DNA from: a virus
Reading direction: 5' to 3' (one strand)
Length of the DNA: 62,498 nucleotides
IMG/VR virus record: IMGVR_UViG_3300037840_000097
Location: 1-62,498 of that record
Below, piece after piece: positions 4,858-39,771 of this stretch; the first letter of the stretch is position 1, and each line of letters starts with the position of its first letter. The position numbers were made by a program, and so were the translations under genes. Below the pieces are notes generated by a model, which saw nothing but the letters and a program-made list of their open reading frames with translations, made no database searches and was not told where the DNA came from.

Positions 4858-6405
4858 TTAGAGGGAACCGGAATGAGCTGTAGTAGTCTGAACAGTTACC
4901 GTTTGACCAGCTGTCAGGTTAATGAGGAACTTGTTCACGATAGCCAAGTATTGAACAGTCACGTCAGCCTGTAGAATACCAATTTTGATATTTGCTACCG
5001 GGTTATTGCTTAAATCACACTGAGCATAGAACGCATTAATTGCAACGCCTACAAGTGGTCCCAAGTAGGAATTAAATGCATTCCGAACTGCCTCACGCAG
5101 GGGATCGTTAGGTAATATAGACTGAGGCTGGTCTACAAACTGACCCATCACAGTGCTTGAGAAAGCACGCGACAAGCTGTTCGTCATTCGAGTGTAAGCA
5201 ATTTCACCAGTCGCAAAGCTGCTGGAATTACCTGAATTCTTTCCATGACGGATACCTAGCGCGTTCGCCCCAGGAATCGGTAGAGCAACAAAATCAATTC
5301 CAATCGTTTCAAGAGCAGCTTCATCGGCATTACTATGAGGTTGAGCAGAAGGCCCATAGGTTTTATCCGTACCCAGAATTCCATACACTGGAGTATTACC
5401 AGGCGACTCCCAGGGTGCATTACTGCAGCAAATACCGGCCAAGATACACGCAGGAGCCAAATACACGTTGGAATTTAGATACGAATCAAAGTAGACCAAA
5501 TGATCCACCATGATAGACAACCAAGGACTTGACACACCTGCCGAATTAACAGCCGTGACAGCTGCCCCTGCTTGGGTATTAATTGGCAGTGACCCAATTG
5601 CCATGCACGTTTCTGACAGGGCAAAAGTCAACATAGTTGACCATGAAGTAGTATCTGTACATCCAGCAAGCCAGAAGACATCCATACCCATTTTACGCAG
5701 GGCATACATGCCTGTACGTGAACCACCACTACCATCTACGCCCAGAAGGTTAGCAGTTGTGATGCTCGCAACACCATCAAGACCACCCGTGAGAGTAGCA
5801 GTTGTAGCTGCTGTAAGCTCCACAGACGAAGGACCCTTTGCTGCAACAATATACTTACTAGCTGGAACGTTTGCAGTGCCAGTGTTTATTGCAGCCACCG
5901 CCGCAAGAGCAGATCCAGTGGTTGGTATATTGTCAAAAATTTCGTTCGTGTATGTACCTGGCTGAACAATGATCTTTAATGTACTTGGTTTACTACCAGC
6001 AACAATTGACACAATGATATTGTTACCGAAAGAACCAGTCCATAAAGCTGTCAAGCTCAAAATGACAGTAGGAACAGTGTCCTTAAAAGAACCTGTAGCA
6101 GCAGCTTGAGTTCCATCTCCAACCCGAGTAGCCACCAAACCACCCTGGGGCTGTTGGGCAAGGAAAATAGCTCCCTCATTCACCAAGGGTGAGGGGTTAC
6201 TAGCAAGAGGAAATCCAAACGTAGACAAAAGTTGAGTGACTGAGTTAATGTTCTGTGCAACATTCAGTGGTCCCCAAGAACCCCCACCCACAACTCCACC
6301 TGTGAGTGTGGCACCTCCAGCTGCAATGACAGGTTGGGGAGGTTTGACAACCACCCAAACATTATCTGCCCCTACTAGCCCAGCTGCTCCATATGCTATA
6401 GGCAT
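4858..6405 (-). CDS. contractile tail sheath protein
   Basis: 515 residues with the layout of phage tail sheath proteins: an N-terminal MPIAYGAAGLVGADN beta region, a glycine-rich GGVVGGGSWGPLN loop close to the usual sheath signature, and a C-terminal half with DPLREAVRNAFNSYLGPL and a final beta strand segment for the interlocking handshake. It proves the tail is contractile. The ATG overlaps the stop of the 51-residue gene upstream (TAATG), implying translational coupling. Confidence 0.92.
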   Translation of the reverse strand: MPIAYGAAGLVGADNVWVVVKPPQPVIAAGGATLTGGVVGGGSWGPLNVAQNINSVTQLLSTFGFPLASNPSPLVNEGAIFLAQQPQGGLVATRVGDGTQAAATGSFKDTVPTVILSLTALWTGSFGNNIIVSIVAGSKPSTLKIIVQPGTYTNEIFDNIPTTGSALAAVAAINTGTANVPASKYIVAAKGPSSVELTAATTATLTGGLDGVASITTANLLGVDGSGGSRTGMYALRKMGMDVFWLAGCTDTTSWSTMLTFALSETCMAIGSLPINTQAGAAVTAVNSAGVSSPWLSIMVDHLVYFDSYLNSNVYLAPACILAGICCSNAPWESPGNTPVYGILGTDKTYGPSAQPHSNADEAALETIGIDFVALPIPGANALGIRHGKNSGNSSSFATGEIAYTRMTNSLSRAFSSTVMGQFVDQPQSILPNDPLREAVRNAFNSYLGPLVGVAINAFYAQCDLSNNPVANIKIGILQADVTVQYLAIVNKFLINLTAGQTVTVQTTTAHSGSL

Positions 6406-6560
6406 TACTTACCTTCCTTCATCTCTTTGAAAGTGAGTTGTTTTGTAGGTTCAGAAACGTTTGTAGGTACGAAGAAACGCATAACGTTTTCGGGAACCTC
6501 AGTTAATTCTTGCCCCTTGTAATAAGGAGGAACACTTTGAGTACAAACATACACAATCAT
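6405..6560 (-). CDS. small protein between tail terminator and sheath
   Basis: A 51-residue frame starting MIVYVCTQSVPPYYKGQEL and ending MKEGK. Its ATG overlaps the upstream stop (ATGA) and its stop overlaps the sheath ATG (TAATG), a double coupling that makes chance unlikely. One Cys and an acidic middle are the only visible features. Function unknown; a structural or translational-coupling role in the tail operon is the natural guess. Confidence 0.7.
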   Translation of the reverse strand: MIVYVCTQSVPPYYKGQELTEVPENVMRFFVPTNVSEPTKQLTFKEMKEGK

Positions 6561-7186
6561 AGCTGATTCACCAACGTAGTTTTCACTACTCCTCCTGAAG
6601 GGTTAATATTTGTAATAGTTTCAACCACTGTTGTTACAGGTACTCCAAGAACCTCGGTAAAGTCTGCATCGAAAGTGAATGTACGTACATACACAGAGTC
6701 CGACTGCTCATAATCCTCGCTCTCTTGTTTTACATACTTGAAGAGAGTAAGAGTTCCATCAGCATGTCGTAAACGGTAATTGTCTCCTAGATTGAGTCGC
6801 AAAAGTTGAGCTATAGATTGACGACTGTCTTTGCTATAAGCCCATACTTGGACGGCTATGCGTTTCTTCTCCCGGCCTATTTCGACATATTCGGTTCCGG
6901 AAGCAGGAGTACCTGTACCTAACGTAATTTGTTCAGGCCCTCGATTAATGAAAGGAAACACGGTGCCTTGCTTCAAATCAAACACTGACACTTGAGTAAG
7001 TTTATTCTCAAGTCTCTTCATGACATGCTGCTGAATCGGGTACCCAGCAGCTATGAGAGTAGCAGGAATTACACCAGCAGTCTGCGCTGTGTTAGGAAAC
7101 AAGAAAGGTATATTAGGCTGGTAAGGTGCAAGCCAAGTATTTATTTGAGCCGCAGTGTCATCCATCACTTGGTCAAGGTCGGCCAT
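6557..7186 (-). CDS. tail terminator / head-tail joining protein (putative)
   Basis: 209 residues from the ATG at 7186, which follows a GGGGG run; a TTG start at 7198 is also possible. The protein has a helical N terminus followed by beta-rich sequence including KRIAVQVWAYSKDSRQSIAQ and FTFDADFTEVLGVPV. Its place between connector genes and the sheath is where tail terminators lie. The start overlaps the receiver gene by 14 bases. Function is inferred from context only. Confidence 0.6.
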   Translation of the reverse strand: MADLDQVMDDTAAQINTWLAPYQPNIPFLFPNTAQTAGVIPATLIAAGYPIQQHVMKRLENKLTQVSVFDLKQGTVFPFINRGPEQITLGTGTPASGTEYVEIGREKKRIAVQVWAYSKDSRQSIAQLLRLNLGDNYRLRHADGTLTLFKYVKQESEDYEQSDSVYVRTFTFDADFTEVLGVPVTTVVETITNINPSGGVVKTTLVNQL

Positions 7187-7550
7187 CGTCGCCCCCAACC
7201 AATTGCTTTTGATTTATCAAACTTAGCATAGCGGCTAAGAACCACTCATCTGGGAATGGTTTTACTAGGAGATAGTCAGCTCCTACCAAATAAGGATCTG
7301 ATACAGCTTTTTGCCCCATAGATGTGATAAGAACAATCTTCACGGAGGAACTCAATGCTCTAATAGCACGAGCAGCATCAACTCCGGTCATGTTCTTCAT
7401 GACAATATCCAAAATTACTACTTGAGGTGTGAGCAAGGGATAATATTTTACAGCGTCTACCCCACTGTCATAATTCCCAAGTATAATCATTCCAAATTTA
7501 ATAGCAACAGCAGCATTACGATCTCGCTGTTGAGGCGAATCGTCTGCCAT
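7173..7550 (-). CDS. CheY-like response regulator receiver protein
   Basis: 125 residues (from the ATG at 7550) matching a stand-alone receiver domain. Visible are the acidic pair D3-D4 (MADDSP), the phosphoacceptor D48 in VVILDIVMKNMTG, T76-S77 in VLITSMG and K97 in LLVKPF, so every phosphotransfer residue is present. No output domain follows. In-frame codons just before the ATG spell LKGVTVI, exactly the first beta strand a receiver needs, but no ATG, GTG or TTG lies there before an in-frame TAA at 7605-7607. The gene sits inside the virion operon, between a 115-residue gene and the tail terminator candidate. A structural role of a receiver-like fold or phosphorelay interference with the host are both open. 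Confidence 0.85.
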   Translation of the reverse strand: MADDSPQQRDRNAAVAIKFGMIILGNYDSGVDAVKYYPLLTPQVVILDIVMKNMTGVDAARAIRALSSSVKIVLITSMGQKAVSDPYLVGADYLLVKPFPDEWFLAAMLSLINQKQLVGGDDGRP

Positions 7551-7567
7551 GATGACAGTTACACCTT

Positions 7568-7915
7568 TTAAATACTGCTGTTGGATACTAGTCTCTCCGC
7601 AATTTTAAATTCATGTTCGTCAAGTAATGGTTGGATTAGCTCCGCATAGTCACGTTCTATTTGTGTGACTTCTTTAATTAGTTGATCCTCTGCATCTTGA
7701 TCTCGCCATTTATACAGATATCCACGTAACATCTCTCCGTTACGTCCCATTTTAGAAACTTTATCAAGATATTTTGGAGGAGTGTTAATAGCTTCTGCAA
7801 AACGAACTTCAGCTTCAAGGATTGCATTGCGCATCCATTCTCCATGAGGTGCACATTTTTCTGCAAATTCTTTTGTAAGATCTTCAATAAGATCCAAGTA
7901 TTCTTGACCATTCAT
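7568..7915 (-). CDS. hypothetical protein, connector region
   Basis: 115 residues, acidic and almost entirely helical (MNGQEYLDLIEDLTKEF ... LLDEHEFKIAERL). The ATG overlaps the upstream stop (ATGA at 7912-7915). It lies in the head-to-tail connector stretch of the operon, so a neck or assembly role is likely, but no family is recognised. Its 3' end overlaps the coding extension upstream of the receiver gene. Confidence 0.7.
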   Translation of the reverse strand: MNGQEYLDLIEDLTKEFAEKCAPHGEWMRNAILEAEVRFAEAINTPPKYLDKVSKMGRNGEMLRGYLYKWRDQDAEDQLIKEVTQIERDYAELIQPLLDEHEFKIAERLVSNSSI

Positions 7916-8682
7916 ACGAAGAGACTCTCAGCAATTAACATGTAACCCTGTAACCCTACACTATATGTGGAAATCGTTTGTATCATATACCGATTACCGT
8001 TCTGATCTGATATAGTGTCTCCTGGCTCAATATATAAACCAGGTAACAAAGGCACATACGAAAACATTTCAACACGATGTGTTGTAGTAGGTTGCTGAAT
8101 TTTTGGAGAAGGTCCTAATCTCTTGTATGGTTGTAACCCAAGTGGAATAACAGCAGGGCTCAAAAATCCGTTGGGTGTACCAATGTAATAGTACCCATCG
8201 TTAAGAATATACGGGCGCTCAGTAGTTTTACCGGCTCCTTGGTAATCAACTAAACCTAGAAGTTGTTCAGAGTCTCCCTTACCCCAAGGTCTAGAAATAT
8301 TACCTTCAACTTCCGTACGAATGAAAGTATTATATGACAACGGACGTAATTGAGCTAAAGTGAACATCTCATTCGTTTTACGATGACGTCCTACCCTAAC
8401 AGCTACATCACCTACTTTGAGATCTGTAGCATCACACATGCCTGTGTAAATCATGTCATAGATGTTAGTTTGCTCAATGGCTATTGCGGCATTTGTCTTT
8501 ACCATACGTATAGGGAAGGAGCACAAAATCTTATTAGGTTCGTTAAGCATAGAACCCTGCGTAGGTTCGCGCCCATCTAAACCATCGGATAGTCGATAGA
8601 TATCATAAGGCTCGCCAATAATTTCAGCAGCCCTACCTCTGCCATACTGGACAACGTCATCCAGTGCAGCGTAGTCTATCAT
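7912..8682 (-). CDS. virion structural protein (head-tail connector region)
   Basis: 256 residues from the ATG at 8682, chosen because it forms an ATGA overlap with the preceding stop; an upstream start at 8694 would add four residues. The sequence is beta-rich with a long aromatic C-terminal half (GYYYIGTPNGFLSP; FSYVPLLPGLYIEPGD). No known motif. Position among connector genes suggests a head-closure or neck component. Confidence 0.65.
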   Translation of the reverse strand: MIDYAALDDVVQYGRGRAAEIIGEPYDIYRLSDGLDGREPTQGSMLNEPNKILCSFPIRMVKTNAAIAIEQTNIYDMIYTGMCDATDLKVGDVAVRVGRHRKTNEMFTLAQLRPLSYNTFIRTEVEGNISRPWGKGDSEQLLGLVDYQGAGKTTERPYILNDGYYYIGTPNGFLSPAVIPLGLQPYKRLGPSPKIQQPTTTHRVEMFSYVPLLPGLYIEPGDTISDQNGNRYMIQTISTYSVGLQGYMLIAESLFV

Positions 8683-8981
8683 ACCGAGAAGCAAACCTCC
8701 ACAGAACTACCAGCTGTAGAAAACAGTGTAACGTGATCAGCAGAACGAACAAGCTGCAGACGCTCACCAGGCATTACTACTCGATCGATTGATGTAGCCG
8801 TAGCTCCATCCATTCGAAAATTCACAAGTCCGCTACCATAATTCGTAATAATGATTTCCGTAGCAAATGTAGGACTACCACTTCCACCTCCACTTTGAAA
8901 TACAGCTGTAGCTGCCCCAGCTGCTCCGATAGAGAAGTGGTACACTTGGTCTTGGGTTGTCTTATTAAACGTTACACTCAT
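8679..8981 (-). CDS. small beta-rich virion protein
   Basis: 100 residues, beta-rich with Gly/Ala/Ser loops (IGAAGAATAVFQSGGGSG), no charged helices, and an ATGA overlap on both sides. The composition is that of head-decoration or tail-spike-like capsid accessories rather than enzymes. No family recognised. Confidence 0.65.
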   Translation of the reverse strand: MSVTFNKTTQDQVYHFSIGAAGAATAVFQSGGGSGSPTFATEIIITNYGSGLVNFRMDGATATSIDRVVMPGERLQLVRSADHVTLFSTAGSSVEVCFSV

Positions 8982-10760: not shown

Positions 10761-12218
10761 TTAGTAGGACGAAGCGATCTCGATGATAGCTGCGCGTTTG
10801 TAACGTGCTGCCGTAGCAGACGGGAGAACGGCAGGAGTAATCGTAGCATCAGTAGGAACCGTGAACCCACCAATGTAGAACCAGCCCTGTGACATGATCT
10901 GACCCATACGATCGATCGGGAGACGATGCACCATTGCAATGTCTTCGATCATACGAATGTCAGAAATACCTCTGCCTGTCAACTCACCGGCCACGGTAGC
11001 CGTTGCCGCAAATGGACCTTCTTGCACAAAACGCTCTGCGCAGATAACAGCACGCCGAGCTACAAGAGCTTTACCAGCATTATTTGTAAAATTGAACACC
11101 GGCAAATTAGTGGTAGGAACAAAGGTCAATCCAAAGTTCTTAGCCACTCGCGCATTCTTGAACGAGCTCGACTGTTCATCGCCCTGCGTCAAGATTTGAA
11201 ACGCTGGGTCACTGAAAAGTTGAGCTTCAAGAATCGGATCGATGTAGCAGGGATACGTTCCATCAGGTAGAGGAGATTTTACGTTATTCAAACGAAAGCC
11301 AGCCACAGCGTTGATGAAGATTTGAATGGTAGTCGTACTAGCTGCCGAGAGTTCCACACGCGAACGTGCAGTACCTGGACGGTAGTATGCCGGAGCATCC
11401 AACGAAACCAGAATGTCATTCTGAGCTGCTGTGATAGCTGTTCCTGACACGGTAATAACACCAGACCGGCCTACTGCTCCCGTACCAGTCAACGCTGGGG
11501 TGAGCATACTAGAAATATTGGTACCATCAAAAGTTACACCAATGACACTGAGAGCAGTCACTACTCCAGTGGAAGCATTGATATAATTAATCGCAAGAGG
11601 ATTGGAGGGTGACACCGTGTTAGGCAGTCCGTACGGGAACGTATTACCCGAAATCGTAACCATTGAAAAAGCAGTATCGAAGCCATACACATTATCCAAG
11701 TGAATAAGTGTATTACCACCCGACGTGGTGGAAGCTGCCAATGCGAAAGTGCGCCCACCCTCGTATGCGCGAAGCGCAACACCAATGCACTTCAAGTCAA
11801 GGGAGAGAGCGGCTTGCTCACCGAGATTGATGATATTCTGCTTGAAACCATCTGCAATTAGCTCTTTCTCTTGGTAGAGATTAAGATCAAGAGCATATGG
11901 AACCATACCGATGATCAGTTTATACTGTTCAATCGGGTAGGTGGGATTTGCAGAACCAACACCACCAACACCAGTTAGACCGTTGTCAATATTGACGTTG
12001 AGAGTGGGGTCAGCATCATCAACCACAGGAACCAGGCGACCAGCCCGGCTGTAAATGGTTGTTTCACCAGAGCGAATAGGTTGGGGCTTGCGGTAGGCTG
12101 CACGCCGAACTACGCAGAGAGCCTCCAATTGATCTTGAAACGCGCGATCCAGCATGTTCTGCTGGAAAGCGGGTTGCAGTATGAGAGGAAAATTCTCATA
12201 GCCTGCGCCGGTCAGCAT
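10761..12218 (-). CDS. major capsid protein
   Basis: 485 residues placed after the scaffold gene and before connector genes. It opens with MLTGAGYENFPLILQPAF and contains a long beta-rich insertion region between residues 130 and 290 with an Ig-like TSGGNTLIHLD / GRSGVITVSGT pattern, and a C-terminal helical and beta region ending in YKRAAIIEIASSY. Size and order fit an HK97-fold coat protein of the P22-like class with an inserted domain. The ribosome site TTGGAG precedes the ATG. A predicted promoter and two operator-like repeats lie 42-104 bases upstream. Confidence 0.85.
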   Translation of the reverse strand: MLTGAGYENFPLILQPAFQQNMLDRAFQDQLEALCVVRRAAYRKPQPIRSGETTIYSRAGRLVPVVDDADPTLNVNIDNGLTGVGGVGSANPTYPIEQYKLIIGMVPYALDLNLYQEKELIADGFKQNIINLGEQAALSLDLKCIGVALRAYEGGRTFALAASTTSGGNTLIHLDNVYGFDTAFSMVTISGNTFPYGLPNTVSPSNPLAINYINASTGVVTALSVIGVTFDGTNISSMLTPALTGTGAVGRSGVITVSGTAITAAQNDILVSLDAPAYYRPGTARSRVELSAASTTTIQIFINAVAGFRLNNVKSPLPDGTYPCYIDPILEAQLFSDPAFQILTQGDEQSSSFKNARVAKNFGLTFVPTTNLPVFNFTNNAGKALVARRAVICAERFVQEGPFAATATVAGELTGRGISDIRMIEDIAMVHRLPIDRMGQIMSQGWFYIGGFTVPTDATITPAVLPSATAARYKRAAIIEIASSY

Positions 12219-22969: not shown

Positions 22970-23008
22970 GTGCGAGGCCCTCGTACGTACTACTAAGGGC
23001 CTCGCACG
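22970..23008. other. perfect 12-bp hairpin
   Basis: GTGCGAGGCCCT and AGGGCCTCGCAC flank a 14-base loop between two minus-strand genes in a GC-rich stretch. No T-run. Partial forms of the arm (GTGCGAGGCCC) recur at about 23673 and 24132, so it may belong to a repeat family of this block. Confidence 0.6.
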
Positions 23009-23014
23009 TCGTGC

Positions 23015-23182
23015 CTACGGTACGTCTGTTATGTCAACGTGAACGTACCACACCCCTGGCTCTACTTCCGTCGCCTGAGCAAACGTCCCGTTTGCGTCGC
23101 ACGGATACTCGCGTCCCTCCGCCTCCACGTCAAACATACCCTGGAGACGTAGTGCGAGGGCCGTAGCCTGTTCCTTAGTCAT
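23015..23182 (-). CDS. small acidic protein, GC-rich block
   Basis: 55 residues starting MTKEQATALALRLQG, then an acidic beta-type part with GVWYVHVDITDVP at the end. Overlaps the previous gene by eight bases and has AGG eight bases before the ATG. No family recognised; the protein is well formed and ends beside the hairpin at 22970. Confidence 0.65.
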   Translation of the reverse strand: MTKEQATALALRLQGMFDVEAEGREYPCDANGTFAQATEVEPGVWYVHVDITDVP

Positions 23183-23351
23183 ACGTCATACCTACAGAGG
23201 TGCTAGTGATTAGTCCCTCCTCGTTTACACTTAGCGTTGACCCGTCGTCGAACGTGAGACTGGTTACGCCCATATCGCTCAACCATTCGTCGATAGGCAT
23301 AGTAGGCAGGTCACACCGGAGGCGACTATGCAGGGATTCCGCGAGTGTCAT
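23175..23351 (-). CDS. small hypothetical protein
   Basis: 58 residues from the ATG at 23351 (AAGGGG eight bases upstream, ATGA overlap with the preceding frame). It begins MTLAESLHSRLRCDLP and has a short beta hairpin (SLTFDDGSTLSVNEEGL). A longer frame reaching 23495 is less likely because its extra part is Arg-rich shadow sequence. Confidence 0.6.
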   Translation of the reverse strand: MTLAESLHSRLRCDLPTMPIDEWLSDMGVTSLTFDDGSTLSVNEEGLITSTSVGMTYD

Positions 23352-23479
23352 ACTAGGTGCCCCTTGCTGCAGTAGCAGTATCGCGCACGGTGCGCGACGG
23401 AGAGCGTGCGACCCTTCCGCCGCACGCGGATGGTCACGCTGGGCCAGGAGGGTAGAATCACGAAGGCAACGGTTTTCAC
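23348..23479 (-). CDS. small basic protein
   Basis: 43 residues from a GTG at 23479 preceded by GGGGG, overlapping the upstream stop as GTGA and the downstream ATG as ATGA. Strongly basic (VRRKGRTLSVAHRARYC). Function unknown. Couplings on both sides support it despite its size. Confidence 0.5.
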   Translation of the reverse strand: MKTVAFVILPSWPSVTIRVRRKGRTLSVAHRARYCYCSKGHLV

Positions 23480-23583
23480 GGTGCGACCCCCGCAAGGGCC
23501 TTGACGAAGTGTACGATCAGCGTGGCGAGCCCTACGAAGGGTACCCACGCGACGATAGCGAGAGCGAGTCCTAATAGCTTCAC
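23476..23583 (-). CDS. single-TM micropeptide
   Basis: 35 residues from a GTG at 23583 with GGAGAACACC just upstream, the same ribosome-site pattern as other genes here. Nearly the whole peptide is one hydrophobic helix (LLGLALAIVAWVPFVGLATL). GTGA overlap with the next gene. Possibly a membrane effector or holin-like peptide; function unknown. Confidence 0.55.
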   Translation of the reverse strand: MKLLGLALAIVAWVPFVGLATLIVHFVKALAGVAP

Positions 23584-23688
23584 GGTGTTCTCCACGTTCT
23601 GCTCGCGTTCCACAGCGAGCGGTGAGTAAACGGAAAGAGGGAGGAGGTGCTACGTGCGACCCCCTCCCTAGTGGTTCGTGCGAGGCCC

Positions 23689-24021
23689 CTAGGCCACCTG
23701 CGACTTGCGGACCTGAGTCGCAAGCGCGAGAGTGATATGGTTTGCCGCGTGCTTGCGGCAATCGTTGACGACGTGCGGGCCGTCCTTGCCCTTGTACGCT
23801 GGGCGACCCGCGAAGTCCGCGACGCGCGCTGCGACGTAGCCTTGCCCAATGTCCGCAGTGCTGATGCCGCTCTTGAGGAGGCCGATCAGGGTAGCGACGT
23901 AGCCGCCCTTCTTGGTGCCTGCGAGGGCCGTCTTGGCTTTGAGGGCGTTACCGGTCACGGTTTGCGCCTGCGCGATGACCTCGGCGCGCGTGAGGGGCTT
24001 GTCCGATGTTGCTTCAGCCAT
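23689..24021 (-). CDS. hypothetical protein, first gene of leftward operon
   Basis: 110 residues with AAGGAGAACACA before the ATG, an excellent site. Ala/Lys/Gly-rich helical protein with GTKKGGYVATLIGLLKSGIS; it may be nucleic-acid binding, but no motif is decisive. It is the first leftward gene after the divergent region at 24.0-25.0 kb. Confidence 0.7.
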   Translation of the reverse strand: MAEATSDKPLTRAEVIAQAQTVTGNALKAKTALAGTKKGGYVATLIGLLKSGISTADIGQGYVAARVADFAGRPAYKGKDGPHVVNDCRKHAANHITLALATQVRKSQVA

Positions 24022-31984: not shown

Positions 31985-32151
31985 CTAAGTTAGAAGAGCA
32001 ATTATCTGGAATTGTTCAAGAGGACCTGTTCGCTAAGTATCTTAGTGCAATTGCAATGTATAGAGCACGTAAAATAGTAGCAGAAACTTTGTTACAGATA
32101 AAACGGGATAGAGTGATGAAGTATAACATGCTGGAAGATGGTGATTTATGA
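31981..32151 (+). CDS. small helical protein
   Basis: 56 residues, fully helical and charged (MTKLEEQLSGIVQEDLFAKY; QIKRDRVMKYNMLE). ATGA overlaps on both sides. It is the last AT-rich gene before the GC-rich insert that begins at the very next codon. Confidence 0.65.
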   Translation: MTKLEEQLSGIVQEDLFAKYLSAIAMYRARKIVAETLLQIKRDRVMKYNMLEDGDL

Positions 32152-32408
32152 GCACCCCAGACCCCCAGGCCCTCGCGGATGAGATCGAACAATGCTGGGG
32201 TTATTCAATCAAGATTCCGACGCGGATTCCGAAAGAGACCGTGCCGACCATCATCGCCGCTCTCCGTCACGAGTGCCCGAAGCCTGATCCCCGCGCTGAG
32301 GTAGCCCTACGACTGCTGGAGATTTGCGAGGACGTTACTGGGCAGAATCGTGCTTACGTTGCGGGCCTCCTCCGCGAAGCACAGAAAGCCGACGACAATG
32401 TTCGATAA
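32148..32408 (+). CDS. hypothetical protein, GC-rich insert
   Basis: 86 residues (MSTPDPQALADEIEQCWGY ...). Helical, with IPKETVPTIIAALRHE and LLEICEDVTGQNRAYVAGLL. From its first codon the G+C rises abruptly, marking the left end of an inserted block. Function unknown. Confidence 0.65.
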   Translation: MSTPDPQALADEIEQCWGYSIKIPTRIPKETVPTIIAALRHECPKPDPRAEVALRLLEICEDVTGQNRAYVAGLLREAQKADDNVR

Positions 32409-32577
32409 CCCTGAGTCGGATTATCGCGCCCTGCAAGAACACTACAACGCCAATAAGCCGCACGAGTACGTCGGTGCGGAGGTTGATATTGGCGTTGGTT
32501 CAGTGTTCGAACCGTGCCATCTTTGCGGCCGTGAAAATTACGAGAGCATCCACCAAGCACAGAAAGGCAGTGAGTGA
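32398..32577 (+). CDS. small protein with CxxC
   Basis: 59 residues from the ATG at 32398. A short CHLCGREN near residue 41 follows an acidic part (FDNPESDYRALQEHYN). Overlaps the previous gene by 11 bases. A 17-codon frame (32577-32630) links it to the HAD gene by TGATG and ATGA overlaps. Confidence 0.55.
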   Translation: MFDNPESDYRALQEHYNANKPHEYVGAEVDIGVGSVFEPCHLCGRENYESIHQAQKGSE

Positions 32578-32626
32578 TGCGAGAGTACGTGGTGATATTG
32601 AGGCTTCGTGCCGAGTCGGAGGGGCA

Positions 32627-33373
32627 ATGAGCGGTTGGATCGGCGTTGACTTGGACGGCACGCTTGCCGAGCACTACTGGCCGCACAAAGGGCCTTTCGA
32701 TCCCACGCGCATCGGAGAACCGATAGCTCCGATGGTGAGCCGTGTACGTTATTGGATCGGCCAGGGCATCGAAGTACGAATCTTCACTGCGCGCGTCGGG
32801 CCTATGCAGCCCGGGACCTTCGAGGAGACGATGGAGGACAACATCGGGCCGGTTATGATCGCCATTTGGGCCTGGACGTTGGAGCACATCGGGGTGAAAA
32901 TAAATGCAACGTGCATGAAAGACTACGCGATGATCGAGTTGTGGGATCGGCCTCGCACGAACGAACAAGGTTGCGAACCGTACGCGACCATTGCCGACCC
33001 GGATGGTGTTTCCGGTTCGCTAACGGCTGACGCACCGCGCGCGTTTAGCGGGGAATCCGTCAAGCGCGTCGGTATCGTGGTCAGAAGTGGAGATGCTGCC
33101 CCCAACGATTCCAGAATGCTTGATGATGATGATGTGCTGCCGTCGATGACCGCCTTTCACGGAAACGAAGCATCCAAACTAGAGGGGTGTCGTAATCCAT
33201 CGCTGCTGGAGATGCAGCGCGCGCACTCGATTTCCGATACGTGGGATTGGGGCAAGACGACGAAGACCGATCGCGGTAAGATGATTGCCAACTCGTGGCC
33301 TATCGGGATGGGTGCCGCAGTCTTGCGCGCCATGCTCATTGCGATGGGCGCAGCGAAAGAGAACGTAGCATGA
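32627..33373 (+). CDS. HAD-superfamily hydrolase with C-terminal extension
   Basis: 248 residues from the ATG at 32627. HAD motif I is VDLDGTLAEH at residues 6-15, motif II is IFTARV near 58, and KDYAMIELWDRP near 103-114 supplies the late acidic part. This type usually is a small phosphatase of phage origin (polynucleotide or nucleotide 3'/5'-phosphatase-like). Residues about 125-248 form an unrecognised acidic and then basic extension. Lies in the GC-rich insert. Confidence 0.75.
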   Translation: MSGWIGVDLDGTLAEHYWPHKGPFDPTRIGEPIAPMVSRVRYWIGQGIEVRIFTARVGPMQPGTFEETMEDNIGPVMIAIWAWTLEHIGVKINATCMKDYAMIELWDRPRTNEQGCEPYATIADPDGVSGSLTADAPRAFSGESVKRVGIVVRSGDAAPNDSRMLDDDDVLPSMTAFHGNEASKLEGCRNPSLLEMQRAHSISDTWDWGKTTKTDRGKMIANSWPIGMGAAVLRAMLIAMGAAKENVA

Positions 33374-34107
33374 CCTCTCCCAATCAGCCCAAGTCGAAGG
33401 CCAACGAGCTAAGTGAGTTGGTGGCGGACGAAGAGCGCAAGCAAGAGTCCGTGCTATCGGCGTGGAGCGGCATCGGCGATGAGAATCCAGACGGACTAAA
33501 GCGCGCAAAAGAAGCGGCGAATGGTGCTGGCCTAGCCGTGGCTTCATGGGCCACGAATCGCTCCAACCTCCGCGCCCTCTTAGCCGAGATCGAGGAGAAG
33601 GACACGTTCTTTCGTGATCACGCTAAGCACGTCGATGCTGTCGTGAGCGAACTATATGCGATCATGGTTGATCCGCTCGAAGATGGTGCGTTAAAGAGGG
33701 AGGATGTTCTCTCTGCAATCTTTGAGGCCGCTAAGAAGGGGCGCGACGATGCTGACGAGATCGAGGAGCTACAGATAACCGTACAGGTCGTGCAAGAATC
33801 ACGCGCCGAATGGCGGGCTACAGCTTTGAAAAAGGCTGCCGAGATCGCCGAGCTACGAGCGGTGATACGGCGCGTGCGGGAGATCACGCCTTGGGATGAA
33901 CATTTCGCGCAAGAGTCGCCCGCAACGTACTCGCGAGACGGGTACAATATGTGCCTCAAAGAAGTTCTCGCCGCCCTCACTCCCAAGCCGCTCGACTACA
34001 TTGAGAGCACCACGGTCGGCGTAGACACGGCCGGAACTACGCGATACGCCCAAGACTCAACCGGCGAAACCAAGCCGCTCGACGACAAGAAAGAAGGCCC
34101 GCAGTGA
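33370..34107 (+). CDS. coiled-coil accessory protein (Ead-like)
   Basis: 245 residues, strongly charged coiled coil (LRALLAEIEEKDTFFRD; EEKDTFF... VVQESRAEWRATALKKAAEI), with AITPWDEHF-like helix and a disordered Thr/Lys tail. It resembles Ea22/Ead-type accessory proteins of temperate phages in layout only. ATGA overlap upstream, GTGA downstream. Function unknown. Confidence 0.55.
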   Translation: MTSPNQPKSKANELSELVADEERKQESVLSAWSGIGDENPDGLKRAKEAANGAGLAVASWATNRSNLRALLAEIEEKDTFFRDHAKHVDAVVSELYAIMVDPLEDGALKREDVLSAIFEAAKKGRDDADEIEELQITVQVVQESRAEWRATALKKAAEIAELRAVIRRVREITPWDEHFAQESPATYSRDGYNMCLKEVLAALTPKPLDYIESTTVGVDTAGTTRYAQDSTGETKPLDDKKEGPQ

Positions 34108-37339: not shown

Positions 37340-37690
37340 TTATTCACCTACTTCAAATTTGATAGGGTCGCTTCTTCGAAACGTTCCATCACTGTACGTG
37401 GTATCCATTTCGAGAGTATAACATCCACCCATTGGAAAGTCAACAGCTTGGGTTAAGAAGTACGCCCACATACCCACAGGGTACAACGAGCCATCAGGAG
37501 TGTTCACAGGAGTAGTTCCAACTGTCAGTGCTTCGACAACCTGATTCTTGGTAGGTGACGTTATGGTCACATTGCAAGTAGCTGGCGACATATCAGAATT
37601 AAGTAGCAACATGTTAGAAGTGAAGACCAACTTGACCTTTACTTCTCGAGCATTTAAGCTATGTTGTGGAACTGACTTGACAAATAACAT
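37340..37690 (-). CDS. beta-sandwich virion protein
   Basis: 116 residues, beta-rich, beginning MLFVKSVPQHSLNAREVKV, with TYSDGTFRRSDPIKFEV at the end. It resembles Ig/FN3-type domains of phage fibre or baseplate accessories, and the product of the 45491 gene has the same style (NNLRYIVPAV, PGVYNIQLEI). Overlaps the fibre gene by 37 bases. Confidence 0.6.
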   Translation of the reverse strand: MLFVKSVPQHSLNAREVKVKLVFTSNMLLLNSDMSPATCNVTITSPTKNQVVEALTVGTTPVNTPDGSLYPVGMWAYFLTQAVDFPMGGCYTLEMDTTYSDGTFRRSDPIKFEVGE

Positions 37691-39771
37691 GTTGCATCTC
37701 CGAAGTGAGCCGGTGGAGCGAAGGTCGTGGGGTGTGTTAGAATGTTAGCCGAGGCATTCGTTGTTTTAATCCCGTGTAGTCCTATGAATGCACTAGCATT
37801 TGCTACCAACATGTGATTAATCGAAATCGAAGCTACAGCATTCGAAGTAAGAGTGTGAGTGGTCTTCAGATTGGCTTGTGCAGTACTTGTCTTCAAGCTC
37901 AGTGCACGCACTGCACCAAAGGCATTGGTAGTTGTGAATGTAACAATTTGCAATCGTGCTACAGCATTTGTTGACATACTTACAATTTTCCGTAAGTCTG
38001 CACTAGCTATACTAGTTTTAGTTCCACCAGTACTAAGATCAGCACTAGCACTAGCCACCACAGTAGTGGTCTTTTGCAGCACACTCGAAGCATTTATACT
38101 ACGAGAAACTCCAACGATAATACAAGCAAGAACGTTTACGGTCGCCGACGCGACTTTTAAGAGATCGGCCAGCGCGTTTGCAGCCTTCGTGCCGACGGTT
38201 CGCAGGTCTGCTACAGCATTCGAAGGAAGCGTCGTAGTCGTCTTGAGGTCGGCAGAAGCTACAATTGTTTGTGAATTGGTAGCTTTCACCACCCCAAAAG
38301 CATTTGTAGTACTGTTTTGAGTAGTTTTTAGGTTAGCAGATGCTGAGCTTGTTGCTGAAACCGTCTTCAGTAAATCAGCACTAGCATTTGTAGTTGAAGA
38401 ACCGGGGTTTGAAGCAGCAGTGAGTTTAGCAGCCGCACCTGTGGTTAAAGAGCTTGTGGCTTTAATATCAGCACTACCAGCACTTGTTATTGCAAGGGTG
38501 ACTTTAATGTCTGCTGCAGCGTTAATAGGTGTGACGGCAGTGGCTTTAATATCAGCAGAAGCTACATTTGTTAGATTAGAAATCTTAGCAATGTCAGCAA
38601 CTGCATTAGTAGTCTTAGATGTGGTTGCTTTAAGATCAGCAGAACCTGCTACAGTAGCTCCAACAGTTGCTTGAATCACTGCAGTGCTACTTGTAGTTTT
38701 GTTAGCCCCAGCTTGGATGTTTGCAACAGCGTTAGCCATCTTAGCTGAAACTATGTACGCCGCTGCAGTAACTGTGTTACTGATAACTTTTTGAATGTCA
38801 GCAACAGCATTAGACAGTTTTGTAAGGGTAACCTTAATATCAGCAACGGCGTTTGATGTTTTTGTGGTAGTAGCTAAAATATCAGCTACGCCAGCTGTAG
38901 TTTTAGTCGTTGTGGCTTGAAGATCGGCTGAACCTGTCGTTGTGTTCGATGTAGTTTTTGAAATGACTGCTGAAGCATTAGTAGTCTTAGATGTGGTTGC
39001 TTTAAGATCAGCTACAGCATTTGATGTAGCAGAAGTGGTAACAGTCAACGACGCTAGGTATAAATTATTTATTTGGGTGGAAGTTAAGGCATAATTAAAT
39101 ATGAGAAATTCGTCAATTACGCTATTTAAGTAGTCGTCATCGGGATTGGTGACAGGGTCTATCCCAATTGCCAAACCACCCGTAGAGGCTACTGTACTGT
39201 AATCGATGTTCCCTGAAGTAGTTGCAACTGTGGTTCCAGAATTGTTAACATACCCAATGAGAGAAATGCCATCGTATGTTCCTGCAAGAAGGATAATAGC
39301 TCCAGCAGTTTGGGAGCCTCCAAAATTACCAGAGACTGCTGATCCGCCTACTTCGCACGCCCAATTAAATCCAGATGTACTAGGATCAGTGCGTAGCCGA
39401 TAATTATAATCTCCAAGCGTAACACCATCTCCACCATAGTGTATAATACGCTTGAGATTAGTGGTATCTATAGAGGCTTGCTTTAACAAGCACACCACTG
39501 TAACATTATTAGGTTCTAAGGCACTATTATGAGCAGCAATAATGCCATTGGCAGTAGACCATGAGGTTCCACCAGATGGGAGTGACATAGCTCCATCTGT
39601 ATCCCCGGCTAAAAGACTAGAGGCACCGCGAGTAACACTGCTACCCACCGTACCTGTAATACTTCCACCTGAATTAGACCCGCTCGCGTTGTTGGACTCC
39701 GTTCCACTTGTAGAGTCCATACGCCACCACAAGACTGGATTTAATCCATTAACCGTGGATACCCAGCTCAT
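37654..39771 (-). CDS. LamG-like tail fibre with 14-residue tandem repeats
   Basis: 705 residues. Residues 1-240 read as a concanavalin/LamG-like lectin domain (LWWRMDSTSGTE ... AIGIDPVTNPDDDYLNSVID). Residues about 245-690 consist of about 31 copies of a 14-residue unit with consensus N-A-x-A-D-L-K-x-T-x-x-x-T-x, nearly without change of phase. A shaft made of a beta solenoid or stacked hairpins, carrying a sugar-binding head, is likely. One stretch of the repeat DNA (38130-38230) is GC-rich unlike its neighbours. Confidence 0.7.
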   Translation of the reverse strand: MSWVSTVNGLNPVLWWRMDSTSGTESNNASGSNSGGSITGTVGSSVTRGASSLLAGDTDGAMSLPSGGTSWSTANGIIAAHNSALEPNNVTVVCLLKQASIDTTNLKRIIHYGGDGVTLGDYNYRLRTDPSTSGFNWACEVGGSAVSGNFGGSQTAGAIILLAGTYDGISLIGYVNNSGTTVATTSGNIDYSTVASTGGLAIGIDPVTNPDDDYLNSVIDEFLIFNYALTSTQINNLYLASLTVTTSATSNAVADLKATTSKTTNASAVISKTTSNTTTGSADLQATTTKTTAGVADILATTTKTSNAVADIKVTLTKLSNAVADIQKVISNTVTAAAYIVSAKMANAVANIQAGANKTTSSTAVIQATVGATVAGSADLKATTSKTTNAVADIAKISNLTNVASADIKATAVTPINAAADIKVTLAITSAGSADIKATSSLTTGAAAKLTAASNPGSSTTNASADLLKTVSATSSASANLKTTQNSTTNAFGVVKATNSQTIVASADLKTTTTLPSNAVADLRTVGTKAANALADLLKVASATVNVLACIIVGVSRSINASSVLQKTTTVVASASADLSTGGTKTSIASADLRKIVSMSTNAVARLQIVTFTTTNAFGAVRALSLKTSTAQANLKTTHTLTSNAVASISINHMLVANASAFIGLHGIKTTNASANILTHPTTFAPPAHFGDATCYLSSQFHNIA

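Follow-up and report, generated by a model that had tools for sequence, protein, structure and literature searches.

Receiver genes carried by phages are usually classed as auxiliary genes of host-like type. CheY-like genes lying within a virion module have been described for the Alteromonas phages V22 (gp30), A5 (gp11) and P24, in which they travel with tail-fibre genes and have been proposed to represent class II auxiliary genes (PMC7289586, PMC10579305). A receiver-like fold with conserved aspartates is also found in the cRec domains of jumbo phages, which are linked to NAD/ADP-ribose enzymes (PMC7824862). A precedent for the involvement of cell-type proteins in neck assembly is provided by T4, which makes transient use of the host protein Hfq (PMC12270204). 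In the Anabaena phage A-1(L), gp82N fixes the neck fibre to the neck ring protein gp5, while gp82C, gp81 and gp80 form a chain of beads (PMC10966104). In the open-licence literature, we found no report of a receiver serving as a neck or virion protein.

Here we describe a stand-alone receiver encoded in the neck gene block of an uncultured contractile-tailed phage (myovirus), represented by a stretch of 62,498 nucleotides, referred to as the window, and of its relatives. Its fixed place in the neck block throughout a phage lineage, its intact active site and, in one member, its fusion to a neck-fibre domain allow a specific question to be put to experiment, namely whether a bacterial phospho-switch can form part of a virus particle or of the process by which the particle is assembled; the receiver, the neighbouring neck protein and the tail terminator form a concrete set of proteins for such tests. 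A switch from cellular signalling may have turned into a component of the phage particle or its assembly.

The receiver gene and its neighbourhood

All features of the window described in this section are located on the minus strand. Read from right to left, the virion operon consists of genes for the scaffold, the capsid and several head or neck proteins, followed by the genes at 7912-8694 and 7568-7915, the receiver, the gene at 6557-7186, the sheath and the tube. The major capsid protein (10761-12218) matches phrog_1357 (E 5.7e-11), and the 515-aa tail sheath (4858-6405) matches PHROG 23 (phrog_23; E 4.7e-32). The product of 7912-8694 is a neck-type virion protein (phrog_14605) which is conserved in the clade described below and in a further contig, L007. 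The gene at 7568-7915, directly upstream of the receiver, encodes a small helical protein with a counterpart of 37% identity in L005 and helical proteins of similar size in L006, L008 and L009/L010. An HPt role was considered for this protein and rejected, as it has no conserved histidine. On the other side, the receiver gene overlaps by 14 nt with the gene at 6557-7186, for which the open reading frame was listed up to 7198 and where the ATG at 7186 agrees with the relatives. The AlphaFold model of its product, which reached a pLDDT of only 60, resembles tail terminators, with T5 p142 at a Z-score of 10.9 and further fold matches to Mu, to pyocin and diffocin collars, to lambda gpU, T4 gp15 and A-1(L) gp8; by this low-confidence fold match, the protein is predicted to be the tail terminator. 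When the putative terminator and the neck protein were compared with solved structures by sequence profile, nothing useful was obtained. A search with models of defence systems gave no match.

The receiver was reported as an open reading frame at 7173-7550 encoding 125 aa, and residue numbers given here refer to this frame. It matches PF00072 (Response_reg) with an E-value of 1.9e-15 and 57.4 bits (gathering cut-off 30.2). The initial sequence-only reading had described an intact set of receiver residues, the lack of an output domain and a position amid connector and tail genes, all of which is borne out: D3, D4, D48, T76, S77 and K97 are present, PF00072 is the sole Pfam family above its cut-off so that no output domain was identified, and the gene is flanked by the neck-type and small helical protein genes on one side and by the terminator-like gene on the other. 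The same reading had considered a stand-alone receiver in a morphogenesis operon to be unusual. The setting is as described, while its rarity has to be qualified in view of V22, A5 and P24.

The acidic pair D3 and D4 forming the Mg2+ site (7539-7544), the phosphoacceptor D48 (7407-7409) and K97 (7260-7262) are invariant in all ten records that possess the gene. The switch residue T76 (7323-7325) is a threonine in nine of them and a serine in L040, so that two acidic residues, a phosphoacceptor aspartate, a Thr/Ser and a lysine occur in every case. T76 is the first residue of a family motif, TSM(G/A)Q, which is common to nine of the ten receivers and whose glutamine is found in all ten. The profile-based AlphaFold model (pLDDT 88) adopts the (beta-alpha)5 receiver fold and superimposes on many CheY structures with Z-scores of about 20-21, Thermotoga maritima CheY being among the best; the latter also ranked first in a sequence search of solved structures (E about 3e-13). 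Accordingly, the protein shares with T. maritima CheY and related proteins the fold, the DD/D/T-S/K site, the MGQ sequence past the switch residue and the absence of an output domain. In contrast to these proteins it is encoded by a phage neck gene, it scores well below the NCBIfam equivalog CheY_Halo (54.4 bits, cut-off 200 bits), and its alpha4 is reduced to a helix of four residues in the model. The stretch bearing alpha4 is shortened in six of the ten records (L006 and L009-L013). Since alpha4 is shortened and the D/D/D/T-S/K residues are retained, the output face used by CheY is likely to be altered while the phosphorylation pocket has been kept.

The receiver also differs from the other phage proteins of this type. 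Like V22 gp30 and its counterparts in A5 and P24, it is a single-domain receiver within a virion gene module; however, those genes follow a tail-fibre chaperone, whereas the window gene resides in the neck block. V22 gp30 fits best to PhoB-type receiver models, the window family is of the CheY/CheB/Spo0A type, and the two align with 21% identity in a profile alignment; they thus share neither subfamily nor neighbourhood. As V22 gp30 is of the PhoB type and the window family is not, the two receivers have probably been acquired separately, as judged from their sequences. Unlike the situation in cRec, no NAD/ADP-ribose enzyme adjoins the window gene.

Distribution and descent

Relatives were collected by searching viral contigs with the capsid, terminase, sheath and receiver. 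Single-sequence searches of viral contigs with the receiver or the terminator remained empty, and the relatives were obtained by means of the capsid protein and profiles. Nine further contigs with the receiver were recovered (L005, L006, L008, L009, L010, L011, L012, L013 and L040; L009 and L010 are nearly identical and are both counted among the ten clade records). In a family search, each of the ten clade records had exactly one PF00072 domain, while 13 more remote records lacked it. Nor was a receiver found among more distant relatives in 74 loci that match both capsid and sheath (capsid identity about 33-36%, some contigs being counted twice). The receivers of the clade share about 30% identity with one another, and this also holds for the comparison with the window receiver, to which that of L005 is 54% identical.

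A search for the gene at the same place in related phages had been proposed as a check, and it showed the position to be shared by 10/10 clade records, in which the 7912-type gene precedes the receiver either directly or with a small helical protein in between. A gene of the 6557 type is located downstream of the receiver in eight of these. L040 has a different protein at this position, and no counterpart was detected in L005, the 11 kb of which also lack the tail genes. The pattern that would have spoken against the initial reading, absence from close relatives together with signs of decay, was not seen, with the exception of an odd start codon in the window that is treated below. Pairwise identities of the receivers track those of the 7912-type neighbour (rho 0.65, Mantel p 4e-4) and of the capsid (rho 0.57, p 0.004). 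Because of this co-divergence, the sequences fit a single acquisition of the receiver followed by vertical descent.

No histidine kinase domain (HATPase_c) was found in 18 phage records, several of which are fragments. With regard to the host, searching genome contigs with the capsid profile yielded no match, and the prophage genes retrieved with the terminase profile, of Acidobacteria type and others, were all distant (24-32%). Among the loci inspected, the receiver of L182 was rejected as a host gene, since its neighbour on this Bryobacterales contig is a histidine kinase; in L182 (4572-8440), the histidine kinase and a LuxR-type response regulator are located directly beside a prophage terminase in what looks like host flank. 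The large terminase of L006 (3422-4861) and L012 (2842-4239) is encoded on the strand opposite to the portal-capsid-tail operon, unlike that of the window. The tail terminator homologue of L006 (14680-15615) is interrupted in the middle by about 100 inserted aa. The sheaths of L011 (7920-9815) and L012 (15051-16937) reach a length of about 630 aa and contain an inserted stretch of about 100 aa that the window sheath lacks.

Fusion to a neck fibre domain in one relative

In L005 the receiver forms the N-terminal part of a protein of 299 aa. The C-terminal 180 residues of this protein match phrog_4368 (E 5e-13), and the same region matches the neck fibre protein gp82 of Anabaena phage A-1(L) (PDB 8keg, E 6e-6), with 26% identity over 132 residues; the matched part, residues 115-241 of gp82, is its C-terminal domain. 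The next gene in L005 encodes a protein that aligns along its entire length with the bead subunit of A-1(L), gp81, at 49% identity. The order known from A-1(L) gp82-gp81-gp80 is therefore kept with respect to the gp82C-like domain and the gp81 orthologue, and because these two follow the receiver in L005, the receiver appears to take the place of the neck anchor gp82N. Homology to gp82 is restricted to gp82C in L005, and no homologues of gp80-82 were detected in the window or in the other relatives that were fetched. Altogether, L005 7675-11314 represents a cassette of the A-1(L) type, consisting of the gp82C-like domain, gp81 and a long open, repeat-rich protein of 784+ aa, on a contig which otherwise does not resemble a cyanophage. 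As the fusion occurs on one contig of ten, recombination could have joined the two reading frames by chance.

Possible functions of the receiver

The fixed position in the neck block, the co-divergence with neighbouring virion genes and the fusion in L005 lead us to favour a role of the receiver at the neck or during its assembly, and the preserved phosphoacceptor residues argue for a switch that is still functional. The reading we tentatively adopt, at a likelihood somewhat short of even, is that the receiver can be phosphorylated and acts as a component of the neck or of its assembly. It might be hypothesized that a myovirus lineage took up a single receiver domain from a cell once and fixed it in the neck gene block, and that the receiver would be made late, together with the neck and tail-terminator proteins, and would most likely act at the neck of the virion or close to it. 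The fold of the receiver may then be used for docking or assembly, and in the L005 lineage it would carry a bead-type fibre by substituting for the anchor domain of the neck fibre. As the Mg2+/phospho-aspartate pocket is kept, the conformation would probably be determined by Mg2+ or by phosphodonors that the host supplies, for instance acetyl phosphate or a kinase, and the state of the receiver could gate the joining of neck and tail or the attachment of the fibre. The fullest version of this model, in which the receiver is a true part of the virion neck, the fibre anchor in one lineage, and host phosphorylation controls assembly or fibre deployment, is rather doubtful.

Against a role at the neck, vertical inheritance alone can hold a gene in place, and a fully retained active site is more often met with in signalling proteins than in those co-opted for structure. 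A serious rival is that the receiver is a late-expressed decoy or regulator which takes the phosphoryl group from a host kinase, of the CheA type or another, and drains or reroutes a two-component or chemotaxis pathway, its position in the neck block being due only to late transcription there. We regard this as possible, at a likelihood below that of a neck or assembly component. The retained phosphoacceptor residues, conserved in full across receivers so divergent in sequence, keep a signalling role open; the closest solved structures are CheY proteins, and the CheY-like genes of Alteromonas phages have been proposed to act as auxiliary genes of class II (PMC7289586). Since no phage kinase was identified, the phosphodonor would have to be provided by the host, in line with such a role. 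However, the shortening of alpha4, which belongs to the face normally used by CheY for output, in six records speaks against an ordinary output at the motor switch, and the position before the tail terminator, fixed in nearly all records, and the fusion to a virion fibre domain in L005 likewise count against a decoy. The same three features, neck position, fusion and eroded alpha4, would suit a purely structural virion or assembly protein, in which the fold and the Mg2+ pocket would be retained because they stabilize the protein, without any role for phosphorylation. This is improbable, as the Thr/Ser and the lysine, which are relevant to phosphoryl signalling rather than to Mg2+ binding, have been kept as well.

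Translational start of the window copy

With ATG 7550 as start, the receiver of the window lacks strand beta1; the codons for this strand lie immediately 5' of the ATG in the same frame. This frame stays open over a further 18 codons upstream of the ATG, reading ...SIQQQYLKGVTVI-MADDSP, and with these codons PF00072 aligns from profile position 1 with 59.4 bits. In the AlphaFold model, beta1 corresponds to model residues 5-9 (VTVIM), most of which are located upstream of ATG 7550. All nine relatives have an ATG or GTG ahead of beta1, while in the window the frame contains no ATG, GTG or TTG from the in-frame stop up to beta1. A non-standard ATC (7584-7586, minus strand), preceded at a distance of 8 nt by a Shine-Dalgarno-like GGAG (7595-7598, minus strand), would be the sole plausible start in this stretch. 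If ATC 7586 is used, the stand-alone CheY-like receiver with the full beta1 extends over 7173-7586 (minus strand) and comprises 137 aa. A programmed frameshift from 7568-7915 into the receiver was rejected, as no slippery heptamer was seen at the junction. The start in the window may reflect a rare start codon, an error in the sequence or a decaying gene. That the window copy is decaying, with loss of the standard start codon leaving a product from ATG 7550 devoid of the central strand beta1, is very improbable, since apart from the missing start codon the reading frame is fully open, the active site is intact, GGAG lies 8 nt ahead of the ATC, and a single-base error or variant in the metagenomic contig might account for the difference from the nine relatives.

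Elsewhere in the window, a 705-aa protein (37654-39771) without a Pfam or PHROG match contains many degenerate copies of a NAVADIKTT-like motif and is probably fibre-like. The regions 23001-24000 (GC 0.62) and 32001-34000 (GC 0.55-0.58) deviate from the overall GC content of 0.46; both contain overlapping open frames on both strands and are possible acquired segments.
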